Source: Caballeronia sp. SBC1 (lineage in GTDB: Bacteria; Pseudomonadota; Gammaproteobacteria; Burkholderiales; Burkholderiaceae). From it: a stretch of 64,000 nt of DNA. Positions 9,508-41,656 of the stretch are shown piece by piece; position 1 is the first letter of the stretch; each line of letters starts with the position of its first letter. The translations under genes were made by a program, and so were the position numbers. The notes beneath the pieces are model-generated. The model was not told where the DNA came from. It worked only from the letters and a program-made list of their open reading frames with translations, and searched no databases. The DNA is taken from positions 930,001-994,000 of the forward strand of contig NZ_CP049158.1 of NCBI RefSeq assembly GCF_011493005.1. The letters run 5' to 3'.

Positions 9508-9523
9508 TCCCTATTACAGTGCT

Positions 9524-9552
9524 TTGACGGTATTTTTTCATTTCGTTTATTT
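9524..9552 (+). promoter_or_regulatory. Candidate sigma-70 promoter for the porin gene
   Basis: TTGACG (9524-9529), a 17-base spacer and TTATTT (9547-9552) on the + strand, in an AT-rich stretch about 115 bases ahead of the porin start. The -10 is imperfect. Confidence 0.35.
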
Positions 9553-9665
9553 CGGAATCTATTTAGGTATACCAATCAAAAAGAGTTGCAATAGCCGGAC
9601 CAATGAATATTGCCTAAATGCGCTGCAAGCGAAAAGTTTTCCCGTGTCTTAGCGTGGAGAAAGAG

Positions 9666-10820
9666 ATGAAAAAGAGTGCTCTTAGCGCAATCTCACTGGC
9701 GCTCCTCGGTGTAGCCGGGGCCGCGCAGGCGCAGTCCAGCGTTACCCTGTATGGAACGATCGATGCAGGGGTCGGTTATGTTAAAACCAGCGAGGGCGGA
9801 CGGTGGGGGTTTATAGATGGCACCTTGTCCGGTGATCGCTGGGGCTTGAAAGGTTCGGAAGATCTCGGCGGCGGCCTCAAGGCAATCTTCGATTTAGAAA
9901 ATGGCTTCGATGTTGGCACAGGGCAGTTAGGCCAGGGTGGCAGGGAATTCGGGCGTCAGGCGTATGTCGGCTTGTCCGGTAATAGTTGGGGCACCCTGAC
10001 TCTTGGCCGGCAATACGATCCGCTTGTAGATATGGTGCAACCGCTCACGGCTGACAATTATTTCGGGAGTATTTTTGCGACTCCGGGCGACGTGGACAAT
10101 TACGACAATAGCTTACGGGTATCCAACGCCGTGAAGTATGTGTCACCCAATTACTCCGGCTTGCAGTTTGAGGGGCTGTACGCCTTCAGCGGTCTGGCCG
10201 GCCGCACGGGCCAGGGCTATACCTACAGCGGGGCTGTCACGTACAACAACGGTCCGCTCGGGATCGCCGCCGGTTATTTCCTCGCCACGAACCCCAGTCC
10301 GACCGCAGGCGCGTTCCGCGACGGATGGGATCCGACCGCGTCATCAGACGCGATCTTCGAGGGCGCAATCAACAACGGCTACACGACGGCCAAATCGCTG
10401 GGCATTGCTCGTGCGGGAATTCAGTACGCGCTGGGTCCTGTAACGGTGGGCGGTTCATACAGCAACGCGCAATATAAAAACGATGGTGACTCAACCTTCC
10501 TGAGCACCGAGAAGTACAACGTTGGCAATGCGTTCGTCAACTACCAGGCCACTCCAGCCGTGTTGTTTGCCGTAGGCTACTCGTATGAGAAGGCGAGCGG
10601 CAATACGTCGGCCACCTATAACCAGGCCAGCGTTGGGGCGGATTATTCACTGTCGAAGCGCACTGATCTTTATGCGGTGGGCGCATATCAGCATGCCAGC
10701 GGCACCCAACTCAACCCGGACGGCACCACATCGGCAGCACAGGCTTCGATTGGCTCATATGGTTTCAATGGCACGGCGAGCCAGGAGATGTTCATCCTCG
10801 GCATGCGTCATAAGTTCTGA
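9666..10820 (+). CDS. Gram-negative general porin
   Basis: Outer-membrane trimeric porin of the Burkholderia/Neisseria type, 384 residues. The signal peptide MKKSALSAISLALLGVAG ends in AQA, and the mature protein starts QSSVTLYGTIDAGVGY, the standard start of these 16-stranded barrels. The C-terminal strand ends FILGMRHKF with the terminal Phe used for outer-membrane assembly. Start: the ATG at 9666 with GGAGAAAG upstream is preferred over an in-frame ATG at 9618, which would put a charged stretch ahead of the signal peptide. Loop regions rich in Gly, Ser and Asn fit surface exposure. The gene stands alone. Confidence 0.93.
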   Translation: MKKSALSAISLALLGVAGAAQAQSSVTLYGTIDAGVGYVKTSEGGRWGFIDGTLSGDRWGLKGSEDLGGGLKAIFDLENGFDVGTGQLGQGGREFGRQAYVGLSGNSWGTLTLGRQYDPLVDMVQPLTADNYFGSIFATPGDVDNYDNSLRVSNAVKYVSPNYSGLQFEGLYAFSGLAGRTGQGYTYSGAVTYNNGPLGIAAGYFLATNPSPTAGAFRDGWDPTASSDAIFEGAINNGYTTAKSLGIARAGIQYALGPVTVGGSYSNAQYKNDGDSTFLSTEKYNVGNAFVNYQATPAVLFAVGYSYEKASGNTSATYNQASVGADYSLSKRTDLYAVGAYQHASGTQLNPDGTTSAAQASIGSYGFNGTASQEMFILGMRHKF

Positions 10821-10883
10821 GAACGGGGCAGCGGCTTATGAAGAAAAGTACTGCGTAGCATTGTCCCAGGCGCTGCCGCATGT

Positions 10884-11915
10884 TTAGAAACGGTAGCCGA
10901 CGCCGGCGAGAAAAACGTCGCTGTCCTTGTTGTAGCCGGTCAGGACACGGTTCCAGGAGCCGCGCACGATCCAGTGTCTCGCGAACTGATAGCTCGCCGT
11001 CATGGTGACCAACGCGGAGACCTTGTCCTCTGTGTTCGTGCCGCCGGCGACCCGGTAGGTATCGATGGCAACATAGGGGCCTGCGCCAACTGCCAGCCGA
11101 AGCCTCTCGTTAAAAAATCCACGGCTGGCCCATAGTTCAGTTGCTACGCCGTTGCGCCGGGTGAGTGCGGTCGGTCCCTCATCCATCCAGGTCAGGGTCG
11201 CGTCGACGTAAGATCCAAACCCGTGCCGAAACTCAACGCTCTTGGCGAACGCGCCCGGCGAATGCAGGCTGTTCACCTCTGTTCTTCCGGCGAGCACGGT
11301 AAGCTCGTTCCGACTACCGGAGCCTTGCGCAAGGTAGTCTGGAATAGCTCCGGAATGATTGGTGCCGCCGAGTTGATACCCAATGCCGACCATCGCGCTT
11401 GTCGTGGTGATGCTGCGGAATGTGTCTATCCGGTTCACCCGCAACTGATAGAACCACGGTGTGCGTGTGTACCATGTTGCGCTAAGGCTATAGATCAAGG
11501 CCCAGCCATGTACGTCGGCATACCGTTTGCCTTCGTCAGACGCTGTTGTGTCGAAAAAATTGTACGCGCCAATTCCGCCCGCCAATGCCAGCCGATCGTT
11601 AAACAACCACAGTCGCCGCCAGTACTGGAGAGCGAAACCATCCGGATGATGATCCGTGTAATGCCCCTCGTTTATCCATGAGTAGCTGAGAGCGTTGTAA
11701 GCGTCGAGTGGTTGCAGATAGGTGAAACCCCACGAGTAAGTTGACTCGCTTGGCGCGTTGGCACGGCCCACGCCGCCCGACACGGAGATTTCCTGCGCTG
11801 CCGAGGGCATCGCGCACAGCAGCGCGAATACGAGCAATACCGGTGAGACGTAACGGCTTGCGGCGTTCGTCAGTCGTGTTGCGCTCAGTAAGCAGGTCGT
11901 GCGCAAAGATGACAT
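10884..11915 (-). CDS. Outer-membrane beta-barrel protein with internal duplication
   Basis: Unrecognised 343-residue exported protein. A hydrophobic signal segment ends near AMPSAAQ (about residue 41), and the C-terminus is VGYRF, a typical outer-membrane assembly signal. The two halves are related: FNDRLALAGGIGAYNFFDT (105-123) matches FNERLRLAVGAGPYVAIDT (258-276), WINEG (80-84) matches WMDEG (233-237), and VGIGYQL (176-182) matches VGVGYRF-like residues at the end. Each half is about 150 residues, enough for an eight-strand barrel, so the protein is either one 16-strand barrel born by duplication or two tandem small barrels. Distant resemblance to PagL/OmpW-size barrels is possible but unproven. 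No ribosome site stands out, so the exact start is uncertain. Confidence 0.8.
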   Translation of the reverse strand: MSSLRTTCLLSATRLTNAASRYVSPVLLVFALLCAMPSAAQEISVSGGVGRANAPSESTYSWGFTYLQPLDAYNALSYSWINEGHYTDHHPDGFALQYWRRLWLFNDRLALAGGIGAYNFFDTTASDEGKRYADVHGWALIYSLSATWYTRTPWFYQLRVNRIDTFRSITTTSAMVGIGYQLGGTNHSGAIPDYLAQGSGSRNELTVLAGRTEVNSLHSPGAFAKSVEFRHGFGSYVDATLTWMDEGPTALTRRNGVATELWASRGFFNERLRLAVGAGPYVAIDTYRVAGGTNTEDKVSALVTMTASYQFARHWIVRGSWNRVLTGYNKDSDVFLAGVGYRF

Positions 11916-12363
11916 TAAGGCACATCAGGAGGTCGCCTGGTAGGCGGATTCTAACGGTGCGATTTCCTTGCCGCCCCGGTTTGTCACGTTTGGTAATCAA
12001 TCCGCTTTCCCATCTAAATCCGCATCCCGGGTGGGCTGATTTCGACGCAGTCGTAAGGCCGGTTCCCCCTTAAGTCTGATGCTTGCCCGGTATTCAGGAG
12101 TTCAGTCGAGTACGGCGAGCGGATCTATGCGGGTAGATCTTCACTGGAGCGGCGAAACGTAGCGATATCTTGTCGACGGGTCGCAGATTTTTTCGAACCA
12201 TCGCTTGGAAGATAGTGTGGAATTCGCAATGAGTCGAGTGCGCATGTATTCAGGAATCCGATTCATATCAGGACTCCTTTGCCGCCGTTATACGAAGCTC
12301 TGCCGGGGGGTGACACTGCCGGCGTCGTCCAACGCTCGCAGAGGAACCCCGGCCGTGCACGAC
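11916..12363. other. Intergenic region without supported genes
   Basis: About 450 bases between the barrel gene start and the end of the MFS gene. Nothing coding or clearly regulatory was seen. Confidence 0.5.
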
Positions 12364-13761
12364 TCAATGGTTGATAGTCTCGAGCGCCAGCCCTTTAGTG
12401 GAAGGTCCAAGCAGGATCATGCAGATCGCCACCAGCATCGACATTCCGACGAAGACCGCGACGCCTGGCACGCCATACCCGTGCAGCAGTATGCCGATCG
12501 CCAGCCCCGCGAAGGCCGCGGAAATCCGGCTCCAGGAATAGACAAAGCCAATTGCGCGCGCCCGCACGCGGGTTGGATATAGCTCGGCTTGATAGCCGTG
12601 ATACGCATAGGACATGATGTTCGAGGCCAGCGTGAACAAGACGCCGAGCGCGATCAGGATCCATGGCGTGGAGACTTGGGAGAATATCGCGATGACAACG
12701 GCCATCGTGAGGAGCCCCCCGCAGATCTGGGTTTTCCGTTCGAGCTTGTCGGCGAACAACATGCCCAGCAGCGGACCAAAGGGGTTTGCAATCGCAATGA
12801 CAAATGCGTATCCGAGGCTTGCTGTGACATGAATGCCGCGATGGATCAGAAGGGTCGGCACCCAGGCAGCGAAGCCATAAAAGCCGATCACTTGCGCCAT
12901 GTTGAAGATCGACAGAATGATCGTCCGGCGCCGATAACCCGGTGCGAAAATTTCCTTGAGCGAGCCGCGTCCTTCTCTCTCCGGTGAGATCGTTTGTGGC
13001 GGCGGCAGGCTGATGCCTTTCTCCGCGACGACCCGGCGTTCGATGTCCGCGACTATCTTCTCAGCTTCATCGATCCGGCCGTGACGCGCGAGCCAACGCG
13101 GGCTTTCCGGAATATGGCGGCGCAAGATCCAGACAACCACGGCGCCAACTGATCCAATCAGGATGACTACCCGCCAATAGTCAAGGCCGAGCGGCCGTGT
13201 CCCGTTCAATGCATACGCGAGAAACGCGACCACCGGCACGACAGCAAACGTGATGAACTGGTTCATGGCGTACGCGCGGCCACGCTCCTGGCTTGGAATC
13301 AGCTCGGAGATATACGTGTCGATCGTTACCAGCTCGACGCCAATGCCAATGCCCGCGATGAAGCGCCAGATATCGAGCGCGAATCCGGTGGTCTGGAACG
13401 CCATGATCACCGTGCAGACCATGTACCAGACCAGCGACCAGGTGAAGATCAGGCGCCGGCCAAACCGGTCCGCCACATAACCCAGCACGAGGGTACCTAC
13501 CCACAGTCCCGCAAATGTGGCAAAGACAAAGGTTCCGAAACCCGCCACTGCAAGGGGCTGGAGGGCCGCAAAGAAGCCTAGCGACTCTGGTTTGAATAAC
13601 CCGGACTGGACCATGCCGGGTGCAACGTATCCTGTGAAGAACAGGTCATAGAACTCGAACACACCGCCAAGCGAGATCAGGATCACCATGGTCCAGACCG
13701 TACGCGAGGGTGGCAACCGATCAAGCCGTGCCGCAATTTCAGCTGCTTTCTCGCTGGACAT
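12364..13761 (-). CDS. MFS transporter, sugar-porter-like
   Basis: Inner-membrane carrier, 465 residues, with about 12 hydrophobic segments. The cytoplasmic loop 2-3 motif is GYVADRFGRR, and PESPRWLARHGRIDEAEKIV after segment 6 is the sugar-porter/metabolite:proton symporter signature (PF00083-type). The ATG at 13761 is preceded by GAGG at 6 bases. No catabolic gene is adjacent, so the substrate cannot be inferred; relatives move sugars, niacin-like compounds or aromatic acids. Confidence 0.88.
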   Translation of the reverse strand: MSSEKAAEIAARLDRLPPSRTVWTMVILISLGGVFEFYDLFFTGYVAPGMVQSGLFKPESLGFFAALQPLAVAGFGTFVFATFAGLWVGTLVLGYVADRFGRRLIFTWSLVWYMVCTVIMAFQTTGFALDIWRFIAGIGIGVELVTIDTYISELIPSQERGRAYAMNQFITFAVVPVVAFLAYALNGTRPLGLDYWRVVILIGSVGAVVVWILRRHIPESPRWLARHGRIDEAEKIVADIERRVVAEKGISLPPPQTISPEREGRGSLKEIFAPGYRRRTIILSIFNMAQVIGFYGFAAWVPTLLIHRGIHVTASLGYAFVIAIANPFGPLLGMLFADKLERKTQICGGLLTMAVVIAIFSQVSTPWILIALGVLFTLASNIMSYAYHGYQAELYPTRVRARAIGFVYSWSRISAAFAGLAIGILLHGYGVPGVAVFVGMSMLVAICMILLGPSTKGLALETINH

Positions 13762-14448
13762 CTACGCCTCTTATTTTTGAAAGAACTGTAAAGTCGATTC
13801 GCCACGTCCCCCGTGGCTTCTTGTCACGCAAACATGGCAAGACCATGTCGGCGCGCAAGAATGCATTGCAAATCACAAGCATGCCAACCGCGCTCTTCAC
13901 GCTCTTCGTTCAAGCGTCGATTGAAAATCCTTGAATTTGCCGTAATCGATGAAGCGAAGGATATAGGCCGTCAATATCTTCTCAGCCCACAGGTCCTTCC
14001 TTCTACAATCTCGCACATCATTGCGATGTTCAGCAATGCGGGCGAACACCAACGCATGCTCAGCCATTGTCCTTAGCCATTGATACGAGACCAATGACTG
14101 CTTGCGCAGCCGCGTGAGGCGAATGGGTGGAGGGCGGTGACTCTTCTGCGTTGCGGCCAGTGCCTGGTCTGATAGCGCGCCAAGGCTTCACGACCGTCGC
14201 TATAACGTACGCCCACGTACGCCCGCCTCGGGGCTTCCACGGGGCTTCCACGCTTGTCAGATCACTCATGTGCGAGCATGATCTAGCGTGAATTTGTCCT
14301 TTTCTCAGGCCTTGCAGGCGGGGCCGAGCGGCCATGCGGGCGGCTTGCAGGAACGGACCAGTTCGAGTTCTCTCGCCTTCGCTCGCCTTCTTGAAGTAAG
14401 CCCAAGCGCCCTTGGCCTAGCCAGGCCATATCGACAGGAGATAATAAA
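13762..14448. other. 687-base gene-poor region
   Basis: No confident gene. A 65-codon minus-strand frame (13897-14094) with a protein-like composition (LWAEKILTAYILRFIDYGKF) may be a remnant, but has no ribosome site. Short tandem duplications occur at about 14208-14256: ACGTACGCCC twice and GGGGCTTCCAC twice. Confidence 0.4.
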
Positions 14449-14901
14449 ATGGATGTTTCCATCTCGCGACGAGCTCTCATGGTTTTCATCGGCCTCGCAT
14501 GTGCGGGGGCGATGACCCTGGCGCAAGCGGCGCCGGTTTCGTTCACCGTTCCGCTCACCGGCGCGCAGCAGGTGCCTCCGGTTGAGACCTCGGGTAGCGG
14601 CAGCGCCAACATCTCGTACGATCCCGATACCCGGGTCGTCACCTGGGCGATCACCTTCAGCGGCTTGTCCAGCGACGCCACCATGGCGCACTTTCATGGC
14701 CCCGCTGCGTCCGGCAAAAACGCGCCTGTGAAAGTCTGGCTCTCAGAGAAGGGCGCAGCCGTCACGAGTCCCGTCAACGGCACAGCTACGCTGTCGCCGG
14801 CGGACGCGCAAGAGTTTCTCGCGGGCCAGATGTACGTCAACGTTCACACCAAGGACCATCCCGCCGGCGAAATCCGCGGTCAGGTAGTGCCGCCAAAGTA
14901 A
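14449..14901 (+). CDS. CHRD domain-containing secreted protein
   Basis: Small exported protein, 150 residues. A signal peptide (ALMVFIGLACAGAMTLAQAA) is followed by one CHRD domain: FTVPLTGAQQVPPVETSGSG, then TWAITFSGLSSDATMAHFHG, and the closing AGQMYVNVHTKDHPAGEIRG. CHRD domains occur in animal chordin and in many bacterial exported proteins; the bacterial role is not established. Start: ATG at 14449 with GGAG 9 bases upstream. It converges on the cytochrome b561-like gene with only 11 bases between the stops. Confidence 0.9.
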   Translation: MDVSISRRALMVFIGLACAGAMTLAQAAPVSFTVPLTGAQQVPPVETSGSGSANISYDPDTRVVTWAITFSGLSSDATMAHFHGPAASGKNAPVKVWLSEKGAAVTSPVNGTATLSPADAQEFLAGQMYVNVHTKDHPAGEIRGQVVPPK

Positions 14902-14912
14902 CTCACACCGCG

Positions 14913-15602
14913 CTAGAGATAGGTGGCAAGCAGCGTCACCGCGGTGGCGCTGATGACCAACAACAGCAGCGCCAGCATGGCTGACGCCTGCCGGGGCGCG
15001 CGGATACGCTCCGGCAGGCGCTTGACGCCAGTGAGCATGGGGTGCAGCAGATTGTGGCCCTTGGCCACCGCGTATACAGCAATAGCCAGCACGTGCAGCG
15101 CTACCGCCACCAGCAGTGCGTCCCACAAGATCGTGTGCAGCGCGGTGATTGCGTTGGCAATCGCTGCAGGAACCCATTGGGTCAACGGCCCGTCATCCGC
15201 AACGTCGTTGTTGACGTAAAGCCCGCTCAGCGTCTCCCCCAGCAGCAAAGCCAGCAGTAGCAATACCATCCACCCGCCCGCGGAATTGTGTCCCACCTGC
15301 AGGTCGGCTTCGCGGCGGAACAAGTGACGCAGATGCTGCCATGCAGCGGCAGGCGCGCGCAAGAAACTATGAAACCGCGCGGTCTCGCTGCCGAAGAAAC
15401 CCCACAGCAAGCGGAACAGCACCAGGGTCAGCAGCGCCTCGCCAATCCGGACGTGCCAGTCCATCCAGTTCAGCTTGGCGGTCGCATAGGCGGCCACCAC
15501 CATCACCACTACCAGCCAGTGAAACATTCTTGTTGGCAGGTCCCAGACAAGCACCGGACGACCGCCCTGCGCCTGCGGTTTGACGGGTTCATCAGCATCC
15601 AT
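14913..15602 (-). CDS. Cytochrome b561-like membrane protein
   Basis: Inner-membrane di-heme electron carrier of the bacterial cytochrome b561/Ni-hydrogenase b-type subunit family, 229 residues with four hydrophobic segments. Candidate heme ligands are the His in TRMFHWLVVVM, LNWMDWHVRIGEALL, ALHTILWDALLV and VALHVLAIAVY; the spacing (two on each of the outer pairs) fits the family. Such proteins pass electrons from quinol or periplasmic c-type cytochromes. No partner enzyme is adjacent apart from the convergent CHRD gene. Confidence 0.88.
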   Translation of the reverse strand: MDADEPVKPQAQGGRPVLVWDLPTRMFHWLVVVMVVAAYATAKLNWMDWHVRIGEALLTLVLFRLLWGFFGSETARFHSFLRAPAAAWQHLRHLFRREADLQVGHNSAGGWMVLLLLALLLGETLSGLYVNNDVADDGPLTQWVPAAIANAITALHTILWDALLVAVALHVLAIAVYAVAKGHNLLHPMLTGVKRLPERIRAPRQASAMLALLLLVISATAVTLLATYL

Positions 15603-15661
15603 ATTGGCCGTGCAGCCTACCTTCGAAAAGAAAGCGCCGACACCTTAAGATCGAACGCTAC

Positions 15662-17149
15662 TCAACGCAGCGCGCCGTCGGTTTTATGCGCAGTACCGCT
15701 TGCCACGCGCGGTTGCGTGAGCGCACTGACGACCACGAACACGATGATATTCAACGCCAGCGCGAGGAAGCCAATATTGATGTCCTTCGCCGCGTCGGGG
15801 AGGAATGGAAACATCTGTCCGATGCTCAGGTGCATGGTCGTGGTCACCACGACAACGGCTACGCCTGCGATGATCCCGCCCATGGCGCCCTGTTTCGTCG
15901 CACGGCTTCGTTGCATCAGGCTGGCGATCAAGGCTGGAAACAGTTGTGTAACGAAGCTATAGCCCATCAGCAACAGCGCGACGATCGTGTTGCCACCCTG
16001 CAGCGTGAACCAGATGGCGACGAGTGCCACGACAGGCACGAGCCAGCGTGCGAGCCTGCCGACAAATGCATCGGAAGCCTGACGGTTCATCGCTCCTCGA
16101 TATACGTCGTTTGCAAGCAGGGTCGACGCCGAGGTAAGAATCATCGAACCGGGGACGAGCGCCGTCAGCACGCCGGCAGCGCCGATCACACCAACGACCC
16201 AGGGATCGAAACTCTGAATGGACAGACGGAACAGCGACAGGTCGATGTCGCCGCCTTTCAGGCCCGGCACCTTGAGCGTTGCAGCGAATCCCACGAAGAA
16301 CACGAACAGCAGGATCAATTGATAGACGGGCAGGATGATCGCGTTGCGTCGGAAGATCCGTTCATCGCGAGCGGTATACACCGAACCGAACGTATGCGGC
16401 CACATAAAGAAGCCGAGCGCCGTCAGCAGCACGGTGGACTGGAACCACGACACGCTCGATCCCTTAGCCGGGAAGGTGAGGAAGCCGGGCTTCGCGGCAT
16501 CGATCGCATGGAACATTGGGCCGATACCGCCGTAAAGGTGATAAGGCAGGTAGATGCCCAGCGCCAGCACCACGCTGAGGATCAGAATGTCCTTCACCAC
16601 GGAATTCCACGCCGAGCCCCGTACGCCCGACAAGATGACGTAAGCAGTGACGACAAGCGCGCCGATCCAGACGGCGATAGTCGGCGATATCACGCCGTAC
16701 GAAGCCGTTGCCACGATGATGCCGAGTCCCTTGAGCTGCAGTACGAGGTAGGGGATCAGCGCGACCACACCAACCACCGCGACCAGGACGCCGAGCGCGG
16801 GACTGTTGTATTTGCTCGCGAAGTAATGGGGTTGGGAGACGAGCCGATGTTTTTTCGCGTAGCGCCAGATTGGCGGCAGCATCCAGTACGAGAGGATGTA
16901 AGCGAGAGTTCCGTAGGCGAGAATGTAGTAGACCGGCGCGCCCTTGCCATAGGCGAAGCCACTGCCGCCGAGGAAGGTGAACGTTGTGTAGATTTCCCCG
17001 GCCATCAGGAGGAATACGAACGCCGTGCCGAAGCTGCGGCCGCCGACAGTCCATTGCTCCAGATTCATGTCATGACCGCGCCGCGCACGAACGCCCAGAT
17101 AAAGCGCTAACACGGTCACTGCAACGATGATGAGTAGAGCGCTGCTCAT
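15662..17149 (-). CDS. Sodium:solute symporter, MctP-type monocarboxylate permease
   Basis: Inner-membrane symporter of the SSS family, 495 residues and about 13 membrane segments. N-terminal features are the polar turn RARRGHDMNLEQWTVGGRSFG followed by FLGGSGFAYGKGAPVYY. Pairing with a small DUF3311 gene, overlapping by 4 bases, is the standard arrangement for MctP-like carriers of lactate, pyruvate, propionate and alanine. The substrate is inferred from that relation only. Confidence 0.9.
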   Translation of the reverse strand: MSSALLIIVAVTVLALYLGVRARRGHDMNLEQWTVGGRSFGTAFVFLLMAGEIYTTFTFLGGSGFAYGKGAPVYYILAYGTLAYILSYWMLPPIWRYAKKHRLVSQPHYFASKYNSPALGVLVAVVGVVALIPYLVLQLKGLGIIVATASYGVISPTIAVWIGALVVTAYVILSGVRGSAWNSVVKDILILSVVLALGIYLPYHLYGGIGPMFHAIDAAKPGFLTFPAKGSSVSWFQSTVLLTALGFFMWPHTFGSVYTARDERIFRRNAIILPVYQLILLFVFFVGFAATLKVPGLKGGDIDLSLFRLSIQSFDPWVVGVIGAAGVLTALVPGSMILTSASTLLANDVYRGAMNRQASDAFVGRLARWLVPVVALVAIWFTLQGGNTIVALLLMGYSFVTQLFPALIASLMQRSRATKQGAMGGIIAGVAVVVVTTTMHLSIGQMFPFLPDAAKDINIGFLALALNIIVFVVVSALTQPRVASGTAHKTDGALR

Positions 17150-30098: not shown

Positions 30099-33413
<3,315 letters not shown>

Positions 33414-33555: not shown

Positions 33556-34251
33556 CTACTCGGGCTTCGGCGTTTTATCGATCATCAGCGACAGATGGTC
33601 CAGATCTTCACGCAGCAGCGCCAACGCTTCGCTCACCGTACGGCTGCCTTTTAGCTGGCGTTTCACCGGACGGACTACCGACTGCAACGCGAGCTCCGCG
33701 ATCGTATCGGCAATCTCGATCGCGCTGCTCGCGCCTGCCGGCTTGTACCAGAACGCCGGCCAACTGCACATGCCGATGAGCGTGAACGCCGTGACCTTCG
33801 CATCCACCACGCGGAATACACCGGCGTTCACGCCGGCCTCGATTGCCGCTGTAAAGTTGTTCAGCACCGCGCGTTTCGCGTCTTCGTTCGCACGATACGC
33901 ACGCTCGGGCAACTGCTGCTCGGTGCGGTGGATTACGCGAAATTCGTTGTAGTGGCTGAGGATCAGCATTGTGTGCTGATGAACAAGCAAGCGCAGGCGC
34001 TCTTTCGGGTCCGCGTCCGGCTCGGCAACCGCCTGGCTCGACAGCCGCTTCGCTCTTAACGTGACCTCCTCGACCAGCGCCGTAAGAATCTCATCCTTGT
34101 TCTTGAAGTAGTAATAGACCGCCGTACGCGTCACACCCAGCGCCTCGGCAATTTCCTGCATCGACACACCGCCGAAACCCTTCTCGATGAAAAGCGCGGC
34201 TGCGGCGTTCAGGATCTGTTCTTTTTGTCCCTCAGCGTTCACCTTTGCCAC
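33556..34251 (-). CDS. TetR family regulator of the aromatic-acid cluster
   Basis: One-component repressor, 231 residues. The N-terminal TetR helix-turn-helix is clear (ILNAAAALFIEKGFGGVSMQ; EIAEALGVTRTAVYYYFKNK), followed by a helical ligand-binding domain. The open frame reaches 34329, but I choose the GTG at 34251 because AGGAG lies 7 bases upstream and the extension lacks family character. The gene is the last of seven in one direction, 150 bases after the carrier gene, so it may have its own promoter. The 5-6-5 palindrome over the -35 box of the first gene (41641-41656) is a natural target. The effector is probably the aromatic acid or its CoA ester (inference). Confidence 0.88.
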   Translation of the reverse strand: MAKVNAEGQKEQILNAAAALFIEKGFGGVSMQEIAEALGVTRTAVYYYFKNKDEILTALVEEVTLRAKRLSSQAVAEPDADPKERLRLLVHQHTMLILSHYNEFRVIHRTEQQLPERAYRANEDAKRAVLNNFTAAIEAGVNAGVFRVVDAKVTAFTLIGMCSWPAFWYKPAGASSAIEIADTIAELALQSVVRPVKRQLKGSRTVSEALALLREDLDHLSLMIDKTPKPE

Positions 34252-34401
34252 GAAACCACTCCTGATAACGGTCGGCGGCCAGAGCGCCGCGGTACCGTAG
34301 TGTTGTGTTCGCGTGATTGTAGCGTTCAATCTCCGACGTTCGATCGGTATGCCGAGCCCATTGCGCTCGTGCCTTCGCCGCGAGCCCTAAGCAAGGCGCC
34401 T

Positions 34402-35760
34402 TCATGCGTCGCTGCGCGACAATTCGATTTGCTTGCCGCGCCGGCCATGTATGCGGCCAAGTCCGCCGACAGCCACCGCCGCCAATACGGTCGGTACGGC
34501 CGACATAAGCAAGATTTGATCGACGCTCCAGGCAAGCGCCATCAACTGGCCGCCGACTAGCGGCCCCAGCACCGCGCCAAGCCTGCCGAACCCGAGCGCC
34601 CAGCCCGCACCGGTAGCTCGCGAGCGCGTCGGATAGATTGCGACCGCTAATGCGTTCAGCCCGGATTGACCGCCGAGAATGCAGAAGCCGGCAAATGCGA
34701 TACACACGAAGGCGGCTGGTGGCGACGCATGGAAATAACTTATTCCCACTATCGCGACGCCACCGAGCGCGAAATTGCCAGGCAGCACGGCAGCGAAACC
34801 GCGCCGGTCGATCAGCATGCCGAGCGCGTAGTTGCCCGCGAGGCCACCAAGCCAGAGCGCGGTGCCCGCCACTACTGCCCGGTTCGACGAATACCCCGCA
34901 CCGCTCGTCAACACCGGTATCCATGCTGCGAGGAAATACGCGCACAGCATATTGGCAAAGTTCGCGACCCAAAGCAGCAGCGTGACGATCCGGCGGTTAT
35001 CGCCGAATAATGTAGCCAGTGCATGACCCCCGAGCCCCTTGCGGATTTCTTCGCGGGTCGGCGGCAGTATGGGCACCGTGGCGCCGGGCGCCACACGGTG
35101 AAGCAACAGCAACGTCCTTGGCGCTTGCGGATGGCGAAGCAGGTAAAACTGCAGCGATTCGGGAAGCACCGCAAGCATCGAAAAAGAAAGCAACGCTGTG
35201 AGCAAAGCGCCCGCATAAAAAACGCCGCTCCATCCGAACGGTGCAATCACAAGCACCGCAATGGCTCCGCCAACCACGCCGCCCACGATGTAGCCCGAGG
35301 ACACCGCCATCATCAGACTGACGCGAACGCGTGCCGGACTGTATTCGCCCGCCAGCGCCATTGCATTCGGAACGATTACGCCCATCCCGATGCCTGCGGC
35401 GAAACGTATGGCGATCAGTGTGCCGACCGAGTGGGCGGCCGGCGTGAGCACCATGCAAAGCGCAACCCAGGCGGTCGCCGCGATCAGTACGGGACGGCGG
35501 CCGATCTCGTCTGCCAGTCCCGCAAGCGCGAGCGATCCAACGAACATGCCCAACAAGCCGGCCCCGAAGACCGGACCCAGGATCGAGCGACCGGCGCCCC
35601 AAGTCCGGATCAGGGCTGGAGCGGCATAAGCCATTGCCTGAACGTCGTAACCGTCGATCACCATGCACAACGCGCACAAGCCAATTACACGCCACTGAAC
35701 GGCCGAGACCGGCCTCTCGTCGAACAATGAAAAAGCGCTCTCTTCTCCTGCCGATGCCAT
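34402..35760 (-). CDS. MFS aromatic acid:H+ symporter (AAHS family)
   Basis: Inner-membrane carrier, 452 residues, about 12 hydrophobic segments. The first membrane segment contains the AAHS signature DGYDVQAMAYAAP, and loop 2-3 has ADEIGRRPVLIAA. Both match the PcaK/BenK type that imports benzoate, 4-hydroxybenzoate and related acids by proton symport. Start: ATG at 35760, since the upstream in-frame extension lacks membrane or family character. Placement 49 bases after the flavin hydroxylase gene indicates that it imports the substrate of the cluster. Confidence 0.9.
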   Translation of the reverse strand: MASAGEESAFSLFDERPVSAVQWRVIGLCALCMVIDGYDVQAMAYAAPALIRTWGAGRSILGPVFGAGLLGMFVGSLALAGLADEIGRRPVLIAATAWVALCMVLTPAAHSVGTLIAIRFAAGIGMGVIVPNAMALAGEYSPARVRVSLMMAVSSGYIVGGVVGGAIAVLVIAPFGWSGVFYAGALLTALLSFSMLAVLPESLQFYLLRHPQAPRTLLLLHRVAPGATVPILPPTREEIRKGLGGHALATLFGDNRRIVTLLLWVANFANMLCAYFLAAWIPVLTSGAGYSSNRAVVAGTALWLGGLAGNYALGMLIDRRGFAAVLPGNFALGGVAIVGISYFHASPPAAFVCIAFAGFCILGGQSGLNALAVAIYPTRSRATGAGWALGFGRLGAVLGPLVGGQLMALAWSVDQILLMSAVPTVLAAVAVGGLGRIHGRRGKQIELSRSDA

Positions 35761-35809
35761 GACTGTCTCCGTACCCGGTTTGACCAATCGACGAAGCAAC
35801 AAACCCCGC

Positions 35810-36946
35810 TCAAGCAGGCACGCCGTATATCGACTCGTATTGACGAATGAACTCGGGAGCACGGTGGCGCAGGTCGTCATGCGTTACCCGTCCAGTACGG
35901 CGCATGTAGTCGTAAGTGAAACCGACCGGATCGAGATGCAGCTTGTCGCCGACGTTTTCGTACCAGTCAAGACTCTTTGCCGCCGCCTGCTGGAAGCGGT
36001 CCGACGCGGATCGGCGTGAGACCTCGAAATAGCCGAACGCTGCGTCGAGATCGGTCGCGTGAGCACACAGGCCTTCATACAGCGCGATGGAATCTTCCAT
36101 CGCCATGCGCGTGCCGGAACCCAGCGAGAAGTGAACCGAGCGCAACGCGTCGCCAATCAAAACCATGTTCTCGTGATACCAGTTCTCATTCTTGACTGTG
36201 ACAGCTTCGAACCACGCGGACTTGTTCGACAGCAGCCCATGTCCGTCCAGGTCGTCCGCGAAGACCTTTTCGCAAAACGCGCGGCTGGCCGCGTCGTCCA
36301 TCTCGCCCAATCCGGCGTGGGCCCACGTCAGCGGATCTGTTTCAATCAGAAACGTGCTCATCCGGTCGCTGTAGGCGTAACTATGGGCAATGAACGCACC
36401 GAACCTGTTCTCACGAAAAATCAGTGAGACGGCATGAAACAGCTTGCTGGTGCCGTACCACGCAAATTTGTTTCGACGCTGCACGAACGAGGGTTTGAAC
36501 GCATCCGCATACTGCGTGCGAGTCCGGCTGTTCACTCCGTCCGCCACCACCACGAGATCCGCCTGAGGTAGCTTGCTCATATCATCCACGTGGAAGTTGA
36601 ACTGCAGTTCCACACCCACCGATCTGCATTCGGCATGCAGAAACTGCAGCAACGCAATGCGGGCTACTCGCGAGAAGCAGTTGCCCTGTATAGGCACATG
36701 TACGCCGCGATGGACAATCTCCATGTGATCGGAACGCACGTGAGCGGTGGTGAATCGACGGAAAAACCCGGGGTCCGATTTCGCGAGAAACACTAGTGCA
36801 ATGTCGGAAAACACCACGCCCCAGCCATAGGTTGCACCGGCGTCATTCTGTTCGAAGACCCGTACGGTCCATTCCGGAAAACGCCGCTTGATCAGGTACG
36901 AGAAAAACAATCCGCCCGGACCGCCGCCTACAATGTTGATGTTCAT
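35810..36946 (-). CDS. FAD monooxygenase resembling salicylyl-CoA 5-hydroxylase
   Basis: Flavoprotein aromatic hydroxylase, 378 residues. FAD fold starts IVGGGPGGLFFSYLIKRR (GxGxxG-type at 7-12). YGWGVVFSD (about 45-53) and the C-terminal FAD motif GDALRSVHFSLGSGTRMAME (about 263-282) match the pattern I know from salicylyl-CoA 5-hydroxylase and the hydroxylase half of 2-aminobenzoyl-CoA monooxygenases, rather than PHBH-type enzymes. The length equals that hydroxylase domain alone, with no fused reductase half. It lies 2 bases after the maleate isomerase gene, with a CoA ligase next. A CoA-thioester substrate is therefore likely: an aryl-CoA hydroxylated para to an existing hydroxyl or amino group (inference). 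Confidence 0.85.
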   Translation of the reverse strand: MNINIVGGGPGGLFFSYLIKRRFPEWTVRVFEQNDAGATYGWGVVFSDIALVFLAKSDPGFFRRFTTAHVRSDHMEIVHRGVHVPIQGNCFSRVARIALLQFLHAECRSVGVELQFNFHVDDMSKLPQADLVVVADGVNSRTRTQYADAFKPSFVQRRNKFAWYGTSKLFHAVSLIFRENRFGAFIAHSYAYSDRMSTFLIETDPLTWAHAGLGEMDDAASRAFCEKVFADDLDGHGLLSNKSAWFEAVTVKNENWYHENMVLIGDALRSVHFSLGSGTRMAMEDSIALYEGLCAHATDLDAAFGYFEVSRRSASDRFQQAAAKSLDWYENVGDKLHLDPVGFTYDYMRRTGRVTHDDLRHRAPEFIRQYESIYGVPA

Positions 36947-36948
36947 GA

Positions 36949-37731
36949 TCAGGCTCCTGCCGCTGACTCGAGCGTCGCGAATCTTTCCGTGAGTAACGCA
37001 CCACCGCCCGGTATCCGCGCATCGAGCCCAAGCTTGTCGAGCATCCGTCGCGTCGTGCACACCGCAGTCGACGTCACGGGAATACCGAGCTTTGTTTCGA
37101 TCGCGTCAATAGCCGGCAGCGATTGCATCTGCACGCAAGCCGACGCAACCACCACGTCGGTGTTCGCCACGTTGAGCGTCTCCATGTCCTTCAGAAGCTG
37201 CATCGGGTCGCGCCTGCCTACATCCAGGTTATCGGCGATCTCGAACGAGAGCGCGTCGATCACCTCGATCCCTTCGCTTTCGATGTACTCCACGACCAGC
37301 TTCGTCAGCGGCTTCATATACGGAGCCATCAGCGAAATCCTGTGGGCACCCATGATTTTCAGGCCCTCGATCAGCGCTCCCGCCGAGGTCATCACCGCTG
37401 CGTTGCACTGATTGGCCCGGACCACCTCCGCCAGTTCCCTCTCCACCGTGCGGTGGTATCCGGGCCCTATCGCCATGATCGCGACAAGGCAAGCAGTACT
37501 CATCACGTCAACGCGGGCATCGGCCAGTTCCGCAGCGCATCGCAAGCCTTCCTTGTTCATGGCGACAAGTTCCTCTTTCGTCACATTGTGCATTCGCATG
37601 CGGCTCGAATGAAACGTGAACCGCTCGGGCGCCAGCATTTCGCGGCGCCGTAGCAAAGCGGGCACTTCAGTTTCCATCGTCGTGTTGGAGCTCGGCACGA
37701 TCTGGCCGATCCGGTAAGCGAGCTTGCTCAT
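36949..37731 (-). CDS. Maleate cis-trans isomerase
   Basis: Cytoplasmic Asp/Glu-racemase-superfamily enzyme converting maleate to fumarate, 260 residues, the usual size. The N-terminus IGQIVPSSNTTMETE and segment RFTFHSSRMRM are as in NicE/MaiA-type maleate isomerases. The catalytic cysteines are C81 (MSTACLVAIM) and C199 (ASACVQMQSLPA), with N16 in the substrate pocket. One base separates it from the CoA ligase gene upstream and two from the hydroxylase gene downstream. In nicotinate or picolinate catabolism this enzyme is the last step; none of those genes are present here, so maleate must come from another ring-cleavage route. Confidence 0.92.
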   Translation of the reverse strand: MSKLAYRIGQIVPSSNTTMETEVPALLRRREMLAPERFTFHSSRMRMHNVTKEELVAMNKEGLRCAAELADARVDVMSTACLVAIMAIGPGYHRTVERELAEVVRANQCNAAVMTSAGALIEGLKIMGAHRISLMAPYMKPLTKLVVEYIESEGIEVIDALSFEIADNLDVGRRDPMQLLKDMETLNVANTDVVVASACVQMQSLPAIDAIETKLGIPVTSTAVCTTRRMLDKLGLDARIPGGGALLTERFATLESAAGA

Positions 37732-37732
37732 G

Positions 37733-39424
37733 TCAATGATCCTGTCTGGAAGATAAAACAGCGGCTGCAGCTTCGGCCTCGATGGTCTCGGCGATCATCC
37801 GGCGCATGGCGGGTTTGTCGACCTTGCCGACTCGCGTCACCGGAAACGCGTCCACGATTTCAATACGCTCCGGACACTTGAACTTCGCCAGACCTTGCGA
37901 CGAAAGGAATTTGATGATCTGCGGGACATCGGGCACAGCATGTCCCTCGCGCAAAATAAGAAACGCACAGGCTTTTTCTCCGTACAGCGTGTCAGGCATG
38001 GCCACGAGTTTTGCGTCGAGCACGGCCGGGTGCCGGCTTAGAAACGCTTCGACTTCTTCCGCGCCAATCTTTTCGCCGCCGCGATTGATGTTGTCGCGCA
38101 AGCGACCTTCGAACGAGTAATACGTGAGGCCCCGGATGACATGCGCGCGCATCATGTCACCAGTGCGGAAAAATCCGTTCGATGTAAAAGCCGTGGCATT
38201 CGCTTCCGGTGCGTTGTAGTAGCCTCTGAGACTCGACGGTCCGCGAAAACACAGTTCTCCCATTTCGCCCACCGCGACAGGCACCTCGCTATCGGGCTTC
38301 AGCAAAACAAGTTCGTCATACTCACAGCCTGAGCGCCCATGCGTGTGGTGACGGACGAATGTCTCGGCCGCCGGGCCGGAGCCGATCAGCAAACCTTCGG
38401 TCGTGCCGTACAGATTCGAGCTCGGCACACCGAGAAATGCTTCGAGCCCATCAGCGCGAGTCAGGCAGAAGAACAGTTTCAGCGACGACAGGTCATAGTC
38501 GAGCACCTCGGCACACGCCATGATCTGCGGCGCTATCGGCCCGATTGAAACGGCATGGGTCACGCGATGCAGCTGGATCAGATTCGCCATCCTTACTATA
38601 TCGACCTTCGGCATCAATACGGTGGTCTGCCCGAGGGCGATCGTGGGCACCAGCGCATACAAGTGCGCCGCGTTATGAAGCAAGGGTAATGACCAGATCA
38701 GCGTGGCATGCTCGCCGGCATCCACGTGCCGGGACCATGCCTCGGCATGCGCGAGGTATTCGGCGTGAAACCGCGGGATGATTTTGGGCACGCCCGTCGT
38801 GCCGCCCGAGAGCTGGAAACTCAGGACGTCTTCTGAGCCGATGTGTACCGCGCTCAGCAAGGCCCTCGCTTCATCCAGGGAGATCGACTCTGCCAGTGCG
38901 GACATTGAATGGGTGCCCTCGGCTGCCGCACCGCGCGCCACGACGACATGCCTGAGCGACGGATGCCCGGCAAGCATCGTCTGTGCAAATCCGACAAGAT
39001 CGAACTTTCCGGCGTCAGCCTGCACGAAATAAGCTTGCGGCAACGCCAGGCTCGCAAGCTTGCCGATCTCGACCTCGCGATACTGCGGCAACGCGCACAC
39101 CGGGACAATGCCGCTCTTGTAGCAGGCGCACAGCGCCAACGCGGTGTCGATCGTCGTTCCCATCTGGAACACGGCGCGCGCGCCCGGCTGGAGGCCAAGT
39201 TTGAGCAACGCGGCAGCCAGCCGATCGCTTTGCTCGTCAAGGGTGCGGAACGTAATGCTGCGCTCGTCGCTGATCAGAGCCAGCTTGTCGGGTAGGCGCT
39301 CGGCCGTCCGCGCAAGGGCCTCGGCGAAGGTCCTGTCGACCCACGCCCCGACTTCGAAGTAATGCCGGGCAACCGAAGGATCGCAATAAACTACGCCCTC
39401 GATTGGAAAGTTGATGCCTGCCAT
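37733..39424 (-). CDS. Aryl acid adenylate-forming CoA ligase (EntE/DhbE-like)
   Basis: ATP-dependent activating enzyme, 563 residues. Core motifs are all present: LSFQLSGGTTGVPKIIPR (about 202-219), NLYGTTEGLLIGSG, FRTGDMM, GRLRDNINRGGEKIGAEEVE and the C-terminal GKVDKPAMRR lysine. The segment LPLLHNAAHLY contains the His-Asn pair that, in 2,3-dihydroxybenzoate and salicylate adenylating enzymes, recognises the 2-hydroxyl and carboxylate. Siderophore biosynthesis is not supported: no carrier protein or synthetase is nearby. Linked to a salicylyl-CoA-hydroxylase-like gene, it most likely makes a 2-hydroxyaryl-CoA (inference). 26 bases from the VOC gene. Confidence 0.88.
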   Translation of the reverse strand: MAGINFPIEGVVYCDPSVARHYFEVGAWVDRTFAEALARTAERLPDKLALISDERSITFRTLDEQSDRLAAALLKLGLQPGARAVFQMGTTIDTALALCACYKSGIVPVCALPQYREVEIGKLASLALPQAYFVQADAGKFDLVGFAQTMLAGHPSLRHVVVARGAAAEGTHSMSALAESISLDEARALLSAVHIGSEDVLSFQLSGGTTGVPKIIPRFHAEYLAHAEAWSRHVDAGEHATLIWSLPLLHNAAHLYALVPTIALGQTTVLMPKVDIVRMANLIQLHRVTHAVSIGPIAPQIMACAEVLDYDLSSLKLFFCLTRADGLEAFLGVPSSNLYGTTEGLLIGSGPAAETFVRHHTHGRSGCEYDELVLLKPDSEVPVAVGEMGELCFRGPSSLRGYYNAPEANATAFTSNGFFRTGDMMRAHVIRGLTYYSFEGRLRDNINRGGEKIGAEEVEAFLSRHPAVLDAKLVAMPDTLYGEKACAFLILREGHAVPDVPQIIKFLSSQGLAKFKCPERIEIVDAFPVTRVGKVDKPAMRRMIAETIEAEAAAAVLSSRQDH

Positions 39425-39450
39425 ATCTGTCTTCTCCAGTCGATCCGCTT

Positions 39451-40314
39451 TTATTGTCCGACGATGCGAACGCGGTCTTTGTCGAATGTATCAATACGTC
39501 CGCACAATCCGCCGGCGAACAGGCCGTACCAAACAGCCGGTTTCAAGCCAAGTTCCTTGCGGTTGAACTCCAGCGCCTCGTCCGATTCAATCAGGAAATA
39601 ACCCGGCGACGGTTGCGAGACCCGGTACACCGAATGACGCCGCGCGGCATCGACCACACTCGCGAACTCTGCCAGCGCGGGCACGAAAAAGCCCGGCCCT
39701 TTGCTCGTTATGCCGGATTGTTCGATGAGTAGCCGGCCCTTCTCCTGCCACACAGTATCGATCTGCCGGACTTGTCCTGCTCTCCCGCTCGCCGCGTGCT
39801 CGGCCTCCATCGCGGCCGCGAGCGTCAGCGCCGCGTCGCTTGCGTCCAGCGCCTGCAGTTCGCGCAGCTTGACCGTGATCTCGATGAAGTAGCCGTTGGG
39901 GTCGCGAAAGTAAATCGATTCGATCACTTCATGCTGCGTCGTGGAAGAGACTTCGACACCCTTGGCTTCCAGCATCTCCTTCCAGGCGAGCAACCGCTCC
40001 ACGCTGTCCGTCAGCCACGCTGTGTGCGTTGCGTCGAACACATGGTCGTCCGGCGTGGGTGGCATCGAGGGGCGCTCCTGTGGGCGCGGCTCGCCCAGAT
40101 AGTAGAAAAAGGCGATCGTGCTGCCGTTGCCGCTGTCGAAGAAGAAATGAAGAAAGTCCGGATGAGTCCGCGGGCCCCAGCCCCGCGCGGAAATTGCATG
40201 GACTAAAGGCAGACCCAACGTGTCGCGATAAAACTCGATAGTCTCGCGTAGTTTCCAGGTCGGTCGCGCTGTGTGATCGACCCCCGATAACGTTAGTAAT
40301 GCTGATTGATTCAT
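39451..40314 (-). CDS. VOC superfamily protein, putative ring-cleavage dioxygenase
   Basis: 287 residues. The N-terminal 150 residues form two VOC modules, with a plausible metal triad H14 (SGVDHTARP), H97 (DATHTAWLTD) and E145 (GYFIEITVKL). YFRDPNGYFIEI is typical of extradiol dioxygenases and glyoxalase-type enzymes. The remaining ~120 residues (VRQIDTVWQEKGRLLIEQSG onward, with GYFLIESDEALEFNRKELGL) form an extra domain that I do not recognise. Start: ATG at 40314. Because the cluster lacks a cupin-type gentisate dioxygenase, this is the best candidate for ring opening, but it could also be an isomerase or a thioester-processing enzyme. Confidence 0.75.
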   Translation of the reverse strand: MNQSALLTLSGVDHTARPTWKLRETIEFYRDTLGLPLVHAISARGWGPRTHPDFLHFFFDSGNGSTIAFFYYLGEPRPQERPSMPPTPDDHVFDATHTAWLTDSVERLLAWKEMLEAKGVEVSSTTQHEVIESIYFRDPNGYFIEITVKLRELQALDASDAALTLAAAMEAEHAASGRAGQVRQIDTVWQEKGRLLIEQSGITSKGPGFFVPALAEFASVVDAARRHSVYRVSQPSPGYFLIESDEALEFNRKELGLKPAVWYGLFAGGLCGRIDTFDKDRVRIVGQ

Positions 40315-40330
40315 TTTGAAAACTCCCTGA

Positions 40331-41590
40331 TTACAAGAAAGACCGTTGCTGAAGCCATTCGCCAACGGCGCGCGCGGCGATCGCCCGCCCGGGCTCATCG
40401 CCGGCATCCAGCGGTCTGCCATGATGATCGCCGCGCACGCGAACGTGAGTCTTGTCGTTCGAGCCGATACAGGAAAAAATGTCGGCGATAGCCACCGGAA
40501 AAGTGGTTTGATCGCCCGTGTATTCGACCAGCAGCGAAGGAACAGTGATCGAAGGTGCGGTTGCCTGCAACGCCGCGTTCGACGATAGACCGGACCATGT
40601 CGAGAGCCACGATTCCGGCGAACACAAGCGCCCAAACCCAACAGAGCCATAGTTCGAGACGACTGGATCAGGAGACCATAGCGAACCGCGCTTGCGATCG
40701 GACGGATCAAGCGACGAATCCAGACACCGAAGGTCGGCATCTGTGCGCCACACGGTCATGATGGGCGTGTGGCTCGCTTCGAGCTTCTGCCGGCGAGTCG
40801 CACGTTTGTCCTTCACCGCTTGCCGCGCCTCCTGGCGCACCGCAATCAACTGACGGGCGATCGAGTCGAGCCGCGCAACGCGCTCCCGTTGCGCATCTTT
40901 ATAGCGTGCAACGAACTCAGAGCCATAGCACGTCGCGCCGGGCTCACGCGAATAGCCGTTCTCAGGATTGAAGGGGTTCAGTGAATCGTCGACCGATAGC
41001 GCATCGCCTTCGTCGGTGACAGAAGGATCGATACAGCCCATTAATAAGCGGCCCTGCCCCGGATGCGGCGCCAGAAAGATCATGCCGTCAACCGTCGGCA
41101 TGGTCGCACGCGACAGATGCGTCGCCCGGCCTCCAGGTGTGTTCAGGACGCGGTCATGCGCGCCGAGCGCCGCTTGCTGGATATAGAAGCTATAGAGTCC
41201 GGAGCCGCCCGAGTTGCCGAGCAACACGATACGCTCGAAACCTGCGTCACGCAGATAACGCAGACCGGCTGCGACATCGTGCAAGGCAAGTTCATGTTCA
41301 AGGCGCAGGTCGTTGCCAACTGAGCGAGCAGTCTGCGCCCACACCGACGCCCCCGCTCGGAGCAGCCCCGGAATCAGATAGTGGAACGTGAAGTTCTCCC
41401 GGGGATGCATCAGGCAAACCACGGTTTTCTCCGATGCGCCCCGGTAAAGAACGCCACTGGTCGCCGCGCCGTCCTCAGTGCGCAGTGTCACGCTCGCCTG
41501 TTGCGTGGCGGGCGGCAGAACGTCGGGAAACCAGTCGATCGTCAACGCATGAGCATGCTCGATAACCGGGCCCGCTGGCATATAGCTCAT
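40331..41590 (-). CDS. Alpha/beta hydrolase of the aromatic-acid cluster
   Basis: 419-residue hydrolase, first gene of the operon. The nucleophile elbow is LLGNSGGSGLYSF (Ser127). The His of the triad is probably in VRGDHHGRPLDAG near the C-terminus. A long charged insertion in the middle (around ARLDSIARQLIAVRQEARQA) may form a helical lid; it makes the protein about 120 residues longer than a minimal hydrolase. GGAG lies ahead of the ATG at 41590. Possible roles are thioesterase releasing the free hydroxy-acid from CoA or hydrolase of the ring-cleavage product giving maleate. Neither is proven by sequence. Confidence 0.82.
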   Translation of the reverse strand: MSYMPAGPVIEHAHALTIDWFPDVLPPATQQASVTLRTEDGAATSGVLYRGASEKTVVCLMHPRENFTFHYLIPGLLRAGASVWAQTARSVGNDLRLEHELALHDVAAGLRYLRDAGFERIVLLGNSGGSGLYSFYIQQAALGAHDRVLNTPGGRATHLSRATMPTVDGMIFLAPHPGQGRLLMGCIDPSVTDEGDALSVDDSLNPFNPENGYSREPGATCYGSEFVARYKDAQRERVARLDSIARQLIAVRQEARQAVKDKRATRRQKLEASHTPIMTVWRTDADLRCLDSSLDPSDRKRGSLWSPDPVVSNYGSVGFGRLCSPESWLSTWSGLSSNAALQATAPSITVPSLLVEYTGDQTTFPVAIADIFSCIGSNDKTHVRVRGDHHGRPLDAGDEPGRAIAARAVGEWLQQRSFL

Positions 41591-41628: not shown

Positions 41629-41656
41629 AGTATAGTCTTTTTGACAATAACGTCAA
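41629..41656 (-). promoter_or_regulatory. Promoter and TetR-type operator of the aromatic-acid operon
   Basis: On the minus strand: TTGACG (41651-41656), a 16-base spacer and TATACT (41629-41634), close to the sigma-70 consensus. The -35 box lies inside the perfect palindrome TTGAC-AATAAC-GTCAA (41641-41656), and a further TTGAC half-site follows at 41661-41665. A repressor bound here would block polymerase. About 38 bases remain between the -10 and the start codon of the alpha/beta hydrolase. Confidence 0.7.

Follow-up and report, generated by a model that had tools for sequence, protein, structure and literature searches.

A passage of PMC4600096 describes the conversion of salicylate to gentisate by way of salicylyl-coenzyme A (salicylyl-CoA) and gentisyl-CoA, and part of PMC5658364 gives the chemistry that leads from gentisate through maleylpyruvate to maleate and pyruvate, citing the direct hydrolysis of maleylpyruvate by HbzF in Pseudomonas alcaligenes. 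Here, we describe an operon-like catabolic cluster of seven open reading frames, all on the minus strand (positions 33556 to 41590), in the window analyzed, which is a 64,000-nucleotide stretch of the 8.8-Mb, five-contig genome of the soil bacterium Caballeronia sp. SBC1 (G000:C3:930001-994000). The cluster probably encodes an inducible catabolic pathway that takes a salicylate-type 2-hydroxyaryl acid through its CoA ester to maleate and fumarate. The gene set is widely shared and apparently undescribed; what is most novel is that the lower half has been exchanged and that the ring-opening enzyme carries an MmoB/DmpM-like domain. The genes, with the short names used below, are as follows.

41590-40331, minus strand: HYD, 419 amino acids; alpha/beta hydrolase that is proposed to act on the ring-opened product, with Ser127, Asp360, and His389
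40314-39451, minus strand: VOC, 287 amino acids; PF00903, proposed 2,5-dihydroxyaryl acid dioxygenase, with His14, His97, and Glu145 in the N-terminal domain
39454..39702, minus strand: MmoB/DmpM-like C-terminal domain of VOC, residues 205-287
39424-37733, minus strand: LIG, 563 amino acids; aryl acid ligase of the EntE/PchD type, candidate acyl-CoA ligase
37731-36949, minus strand: ISO, 260 amino acids; maleate cis-trans isomerase, with Cys81 and Cys199 at two conserved positions
36946-35810, minus strand: FAD, 378 amino acids; salicylyl-CoA 5-hydroxylase-like single-component flavin hydroxylase
35760-34402, minus strand: MFS, 452 amino acids; aromatic acid/H+ symport-type carrier
34251-33556, minus strand: TetR, 231 amino acids, GTG start; TetR_N, proposed repressor of the cluster

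From HYD to TetR, the genes are separated by 16, 26, 1, 2, 49, and 150 bases. The preliminary description of this DNA had reported seven codirectional genes with innermost gaps of 1 and 2 bases, and the coordinates agree, with all seven frames open. Three features are additions to that description: the second domain of VOC, the thioesterase encoded in relatives but not in the window cluster, and the promoter with its operator. Plasmid pSBC2-2 of Caballeronia sp. SBC2 encodes 100% identical copies of all seven proteins. The names given to LIG, FAD, and MFS are to be read at the family level, because their scores lie under the curated NCBIfam cut-offs; MFS, for example, scores 309.5 bits with the aromatic acid/H+ symporter model and does not reach the cut-off of 418.55.

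We infer each reaction, the substrate, the metal, and the role of the C-terminal domain of VOC. The MFS carrier would import the acid, LIG would form its CoA ester, and FAD would hydroxylate the ester para to the 2-hydroxyl group. A thioesterase, which most relatives encode in the cluster and which here would be another one of the cell, would then release a gentisate-type acid. His14, His97, and Glu145 of the VOC domain would bind a metal, probably Fe(II), and this domain would open the ring to give a maleylpyruvate-type product, a step that the MmoB/DmpM-like domain may help or gate. HYD would split the product into maleate and pyruvate, ISO would convert maleate to fumarate, and TetR would act at a palindrome that overlaps the -35 box. 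The order of import, CoA ligation, CoA-level hydroxylation, VOC ring opening, hydrolysis, and maleate isomerization had been put forward in the preliminary description and still gives the best reading, each step staying conditional; the amendment is that the thioesterase of most relatives suggests removal of the CoA ester before the ring is opened.

The upper half of the cluster is like the CoA-dependent route from salicylate to gentisate (SdgC of Streptomyces sp. WA46; cehG and cehH as annotated in Salipiger abyssi) in its proposed CoA ligase and CoA-ester flavin hydroxylase and, in the relatives only, its thioesterase. However, LIG is EntE/PchD-like and shares only about 25% identity with CehG as annotated, the window has no such thioesterase gene in the cluster, and the lower half consists of VOC, HYD, and ISO rather than a cupin dioxygenase with an isomerase/FAH. 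Unlike the classical gentisate pathway, the cluster has no cupin gentisate 1,2-dioxygenase, maleylpyruvate isomerase, or FAH-type hydrolase, although a cupin homologue and FAH are encoded elsewhere in the genome. The earlier statement that the standard dioxygenase is lacking is thus correct for the cluster but not for the genome, in which contig C5 carries a cupin gentisate-dioxygenase homologue (330 bits; cut-off, 442). The proposed reactions from gentisate through maleylpyruvate to maleate and pyruvate are those of the P. alcaligenes pathway. HbzF is a member of the FAH family, whereas the candidate in the window is an alpha/beta hydrolase, and the maleate would be isomerized to fumarate. 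If the pathway is as proposed, the gentisate route has a complete alternative lower half that is made of parts without homology to the textbook enzymes and is encoded at several hundred genomic loci (390 with a hydrolase relative).

Conservation of the gene set

Two sets of loci were compared. For the VOC-anchored set, 20 regions were fetched around strong VOC matches; for the HYD-anchored set, genome contigs were scanned with the HYD alignment, which gave 390 loci, and the best 80 were kept. These 80 come mainly from Betaproteobacteria plus Pseudomonas, Azospirillum, Bradyrhizobium, and Sphingomonas, so that the fractions below are not valid for weaker relatives, and some of the loci stop near contig edges. 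HYD, LIG, and FAD adjoin VOC in 20 of the 20 VOC-anchored regions, as do ISO in 17 and a thioesterase in 17, although the thioesterase match of one of the latter (L031) scores only 72 bits. Among the best 80 HYD-anchored loci, VOC, its C-terminal part, and LIG are each found in 79, FAD in 77, the thioesterase in 70, ISO in 56, a window-like TetR in 29, and a window-like MFS in 12. Whether the gene order recurs across genomes, a point raised in the preliminary description, is answered by these counts: the set is found in 20/20 VOC-anchored regions and in nearly all 80 HYD-anchored loci and is not unique to the strain. This recurrence exceeds chance. The gene set, its order, and its conservation are computed results, as are the families, predicted folds, conserved residues, and conserved operator reported in the following sections.

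The thioesterase of most relatives is a hotdog protein of 150 to 170 amino acids encoded among LIG, ISO, and FAD, with a WGECDPAGVVY-like motif that we take to be that of hotdog 4-hydroxybenzoyl-CoA thioesterases.

VOC matches, many of them weak, occur in 85 of the 299 genomes of the family. Among 398 genomes drawn from the phylum, HYD is found at E < 1e-60 in one, its own genome, and the cluster is therefore rare across the phylum. The protein database holds 2343 VOC and 2722 HYD relatives at E < 0.001, the HYD search having scored only the 7997 candidates that share most words. Some copies are on plasmid records: those of Tistrella and Pseudosulfitobacter hold the full set including the thioesterase, while that of Rhodococcus holds a partial set without thioesterase and ISO, and that of Streptomyces a partial set without FAD and thioesterase. 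A partial set with HYD and LIG homologues, the other parts being different, is found on Mycobacterium avium plasmid pP7a; this region (L052) also has genes for an acyl-CoA dehydrogenase, a thioesterase, and FAH, and a larger protein encoded there gives a 31% match to the FAD hydroxylase. Of the assemblies behind the 80 loci, five hold both the window type of gene order and a Cupriavidus type: Achromobacter insolitus (L076/L118), A. pestifer (L074/L119), A. anxifer (L079/L129), A. xylosoxidans (L081/L112), and Paraburkholderia sp. C35 (L084/L137).

The cluster is not named in the literature searched, a coverage that excluded the VOC-type homogentisate dioxygenase, the ceh route, and the pairing of MmoB/DmpM with VOC. 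If the proposed pathway is correct, it gives functions to proteins now labeled VOC family protein, alpha/beta hydrolase, hypothetical protein, and Asp/Glu racemase.

Proposed ring opening, hydrolysis, and isomerization

VOC (model with a predicted local distance difference test [pLDDT] score of 90.8) has the VOC fold and the 2-His-1-Glu metal site of the type I ring-cleaving dioxygenases. His14, His97, and Glu145 are identical in 53/53 alignment rows and line up with the triad of the nearest solved sequence relative, an Acinetobacter protein (PDB 9u42; E 6.2e-16) titled homogentisate 1,2-dioxygenase. That enzyme shares the VOC fold and the aligned His/His/Glu triad but differs in its length of 182 residues and in having no MmoB/DmpM-like domain, and about 29% of its residues are shared with the VOC of the window; it is not among the 50 rows given by VIA-align for the VOC model. 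We propose VOC as a candidate 2,5-dihydroxyaryl acid dioxygenase. The substrate of homogentisate 1,2-dioxygenase is itself a 2,5-dihydroxyaryl acid.

The C-terminal domain of VOC resembles MmoB/DmpM in both fold and sequence profile. MmoB/DmpM proteins are effectors of diiron monooxygenases, and we know of effectors of this type solely with those enzymes. In contrast to such effectors (for example, that of the phenol hydroxylase PHM, 2inn/2inp), the part found here is fused to VOC or encoded right after it, has no nearby diiron hydroxylase match, and lies below the Pfam cut-off. A tblastn search for a diiron monooxygenase partner gave no match in 98 loci or the window (queries, open reading frames beside an authentic DmpM gene; E 1e-3; no positive control). 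The domain of the window has no Pfam match and does not reach the PF02406 gathering cut-off, and 4/16 relatives give weak matches to PF02406 (best E, 0.012). The fusion to VOC is seen in 64/84 loci; in the other 20, which include L041, L042, L046, L047, L048, L128, and L132, the VOC and MmoB/DmpM-like parts are encoded in different frames that often overlap, and some of these may be draft errors or frameshift sites. We give an even chance to the idea that these loci represent a widespread, undescribed pathway in which an MmoB/DmpM-type effector, recruited as a fused or partner domain by a VOC dioxygenase of the gentisate class, gates ring opening or couples it; upstream of this step, hydroxylation would take place at the CoA level, and downstream of it, an alpha/beta hydrolase would make the maleate branch. 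If so, a diiron monooxygenase effector that serves a VOC ring-opening enzyme bears on the general role of MmoB-like proteins. An authentic MmoB/DmpM-family gene (95.9 bits) is located on the same contig at G000:C3:877332-877583 (L162), about 90 kb from the cluster.

HYD is above no Pfam or NCBIfam cut-off (PF12697 is found at E 0.0015, under the cut-off), but its model (pLDDT, 88.6) is that of an alpha/beta hydrolase, and Ser127, Asp360, and His389 are invariant in a 38-row alignment. More-distant relatives of HYD (27 to 38% identity) are encoded in clusters that hold other hydroxylases; in all eight of those examined, of 25 listed, a VOC (six) or cupin (two) gene is adjacent or one gene off, and this pairing points to a role of HYD as a ring-product hydrolase. 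ISO belongs to the arylmalonate decarboxylase family PF17645, its best PDB match is the maleate isomerase 4fq7 (280.7 bits), and Cys81 and Cys199 align with the cysteines of that enzyme.

Ligase, hydroxylase, and alternative readings

LIG is an AMP-binding protein whose best NCBIfam model is (2,3-dihydroxybenzoyl)adenylate synthase (353.8 bits; cut-off of 723.55 not reached), and its top scores are with salicylate and 2,3-dihydroxybenzoate ligases, which are adenylating enzymes. A His-Asn pair is kept in 77/77 aligned ligases of the 80 loci, three being not alignable. By ungapped count, the sixth residue after this His is Cys in PchD and in the salicylate-AMP ligase 5wm2, and DhbE and EntE have Ser there; of the cluster rows shown, those of the Cupriavidus type have Cys and those of the window type have Tyr. 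The position is uncertain, HMMER placing a one-residue gap there, and for this reason no firm substrate call is made from the LIG pocket. Salicylate is taken as the default substrate, with a window-type pocket that appears to differ from those of salicylate ligases. The difference in this residue, together with the five assemblies that hold both gene orders, suggests that the window and Cupriavidus types may serve different 2-hydroxyaryl acids. If salicylate is the substrate, the cluster bears on the removal of a plant defense hormone by soil and root bacteria.

The best model for FAD is the hydroxylase half of salicylyl-CoA 5-hydroxylase/oxidoreductase (PRK08255; 379.8 bits), with the equivalog cut-off of 1078 for the fused protein not reached; FAD is also close to VioD. 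On plasmid records, hydroxylases 38.9 to 42.8% identical to FAD are found in CoA-ligase/thioesterase/gentisate-dioxygenase or cupin contexts. These are the annotated cehH and cehG with a thioesterase in Salipiger abyssi (identity between FAD and CehH as annotated, 38.9%); a cupin, thioesterase, ligase, and FAH in Agrobacterium (identity between FAD and the hydroxylase beside them, 42.6%); gtdA with FAH, thioesterase, and beta-oxidation genes; and a gene annotated as gentisate 1,2-dioxygenase. In a quick tree of 22 rows with the fused homologue of this genome as the root, the plasmid hydroxylases fall between the type of the window and that of Cupriavidus/Pseudomonas, a placing that is not firm in view of four long end branches. 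In sequence, FAD fits the salicylyl-CoA hydroxylase group, whereas the lower half differs. The comparison of ligase and hydroxylase with characterized enzymes, which the preliminary description had singled out, favors its reading for FAD, but window-type LIG appears to be without the residue of the salicylate ligases.

A thiolase-like gene, read as such from its sequence, is present in 12/80 loci and hints at side-chain shortening to an aryl-CoA in some hosts, as from o-coumarate. It is directly downstream in some Pseudomonas, Caballeronia, and Paraburkholderia clusters (L083, L089, L090, L094, L097, L102, and L104), and the Pseudomonas clusters with this gene also encode what reads as a FadL-like outer membrane protein.

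Several results speak against the proposed pathway. Methylmalonyl-CoA epimerases and catechol-type dioxygenases match the VOC domain structurally at equal or higher Z, so that the fold alone cannot fix the reaction, and the Foldseek superposition of 9u42 on the VOC model is poor (TMq, 0.25; root mean square deviation, 13.8). The fold matches of HYD are esterases and lipases, CoA transfer by LIG (beyond adenylation) is an assumption, and the Tyr of window-type ligases counts on the same side. The window cluster has neither a thioesterase gene nor space for one, and the 16 matches to the 4HBT family found in the genome include a single one with weak similarity to the cluster type (24%; E 5.8e-4; internal stop in the match). 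ISO is missing in 24/80 and the thioesterase in 10/80 HYD-anchored loci, some of them at contig edges.

A separate thioesterase is unneeded if the ring is opened as a CoA thioester, that is, if FAD makes a 2,5-dihydroxyaroyl-CoA that VOC and its effector protein open, with hydrolysis afterward. The window, the 10 HYD-anchored loci, and three of the VOC-anchored loci (L042, L046, and L047), none of which has an adjoining thioesterase gene, agree with this scheme, as does the fact that the VOC domain has methylmalonyl-CoA epimerases, which bind acyl-CoA, among its best structural matches. Nevertheless, given the thioesterase in 70/80 loci and a nearest solved VOC relative that acts on the free acid, we consider ring opening at the thioester level unlikely.

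It is quite unlikely that the substrate is instead a 2-amino or pyridine carboxylate (anthranilate-like) and that maleate is reached through maleamate. Three other clusters of the genome, two of them nic-like and one an anthranilate-like candidate, have ISO homologues of 57 to 58% identity, and the fused hydroxylases related to FAD include 2-aminobenzoyl-CoA monooxygenase; however, LIG is nearest to enzymes of 2-hydroxyaryl acids, and the window cluster has no amidase or nitrilase, whereas the cluster on contig C5 has a nitrilase before its maleate isomerase. Nicotinate (nic) degradation also has a maleate isomerase at its end but involves no CoA ester, and its ring-opening and amide enzymes are not in the window cluster; family scans of the seven window genes found no maleamate amidase and no NicX-type enzyme. 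A nic-like pathway is accordingly disfavored.

HYD, as the first gene and with a predicted fold like those of feruloyl and cinnamoyl esterases, might also be an esterase that acts at the start of the pathway to release the acid from an ester or amide, with the ring cleavage products left to other enzymes of the cell. The pairing of its 27 to 38% identical homologues with VOC or cupin dioxygenase genes in 8/8 cases disfavors this upstream role and makes it very unlikely.

Promoter region and other clusters of the genome

For the pathway proposed here, in which a 2-hydroxyaryl acid is degraded through its CoA ester, control by TetR may be exerted at a promoter upstream of HYD with the following elements.

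41656-41641, minus strand: palindrome TTGACGTTATTGTCAA, a candidate operator for TetR that overlaps the -35 hexamer TTGACG (41656-41651)
41629..41634, minus strand: -10 hexamer TATACT, after a 16-base spacer and ending 38 bases before the HYD start codon

The TTGACGTTATTGTCAA pattern has a single exact match on the minus strand of the window, and a promoter scan of the region gave 6 promoter-like sites versus 2.6 expected. In the three close relatives checked (L031, L033, and L034), HYD is preceded by TTGACGTAGACGTCAA, TTGACATCATCGTCAA, and TTGACATCAACGTCAA, respectively, each followed by TATACT. Five TetR-HYD intergenic regions of more distant loci showed no TTGA-to-TCAA palindrome, and none was found before TetR in L031 to L034. 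TetR lies directly before HYD in L031 to L034 and at the 3' end in the window cluster. We propose the conserved palindrome as a candidate TetR operator.

Directly past the 3' end of the cluster and convergent with it is a catalase-peroxidase gene (above the cut-off; window positions 31152-33413, plus strand).

Contig C5 carries a second CoA-type aromatic cluster (L145, G000:C5:139000-158900, about 7524-16086). It encodes a 4HBT thioesterase, a fused salicylyl/2-aminobenzoyl-CoA-type hydroxylase/OYE (1333 bits, above the cut-off), a cupin (330 bits), FAH, a nitrilase, a maleate isomerase 58% identical to ISO, and a cyclase-like gene, with indolepyruvate oxidoreductase-like genes just upstream. 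This cluster appears to arrive at maleate through the cupin and FAH, and it perhaps starts from an amino analogue, as its nitrilase would suggest. The two nic-like clusters are located on G000:C2 near 1.765 Mb (L146) and 1.516 Mb (L147); their maleate isomerase homologues, 57% identical to ISO, adjoin genes that read in sequence as NicD-, NicX-, and NicF-like.

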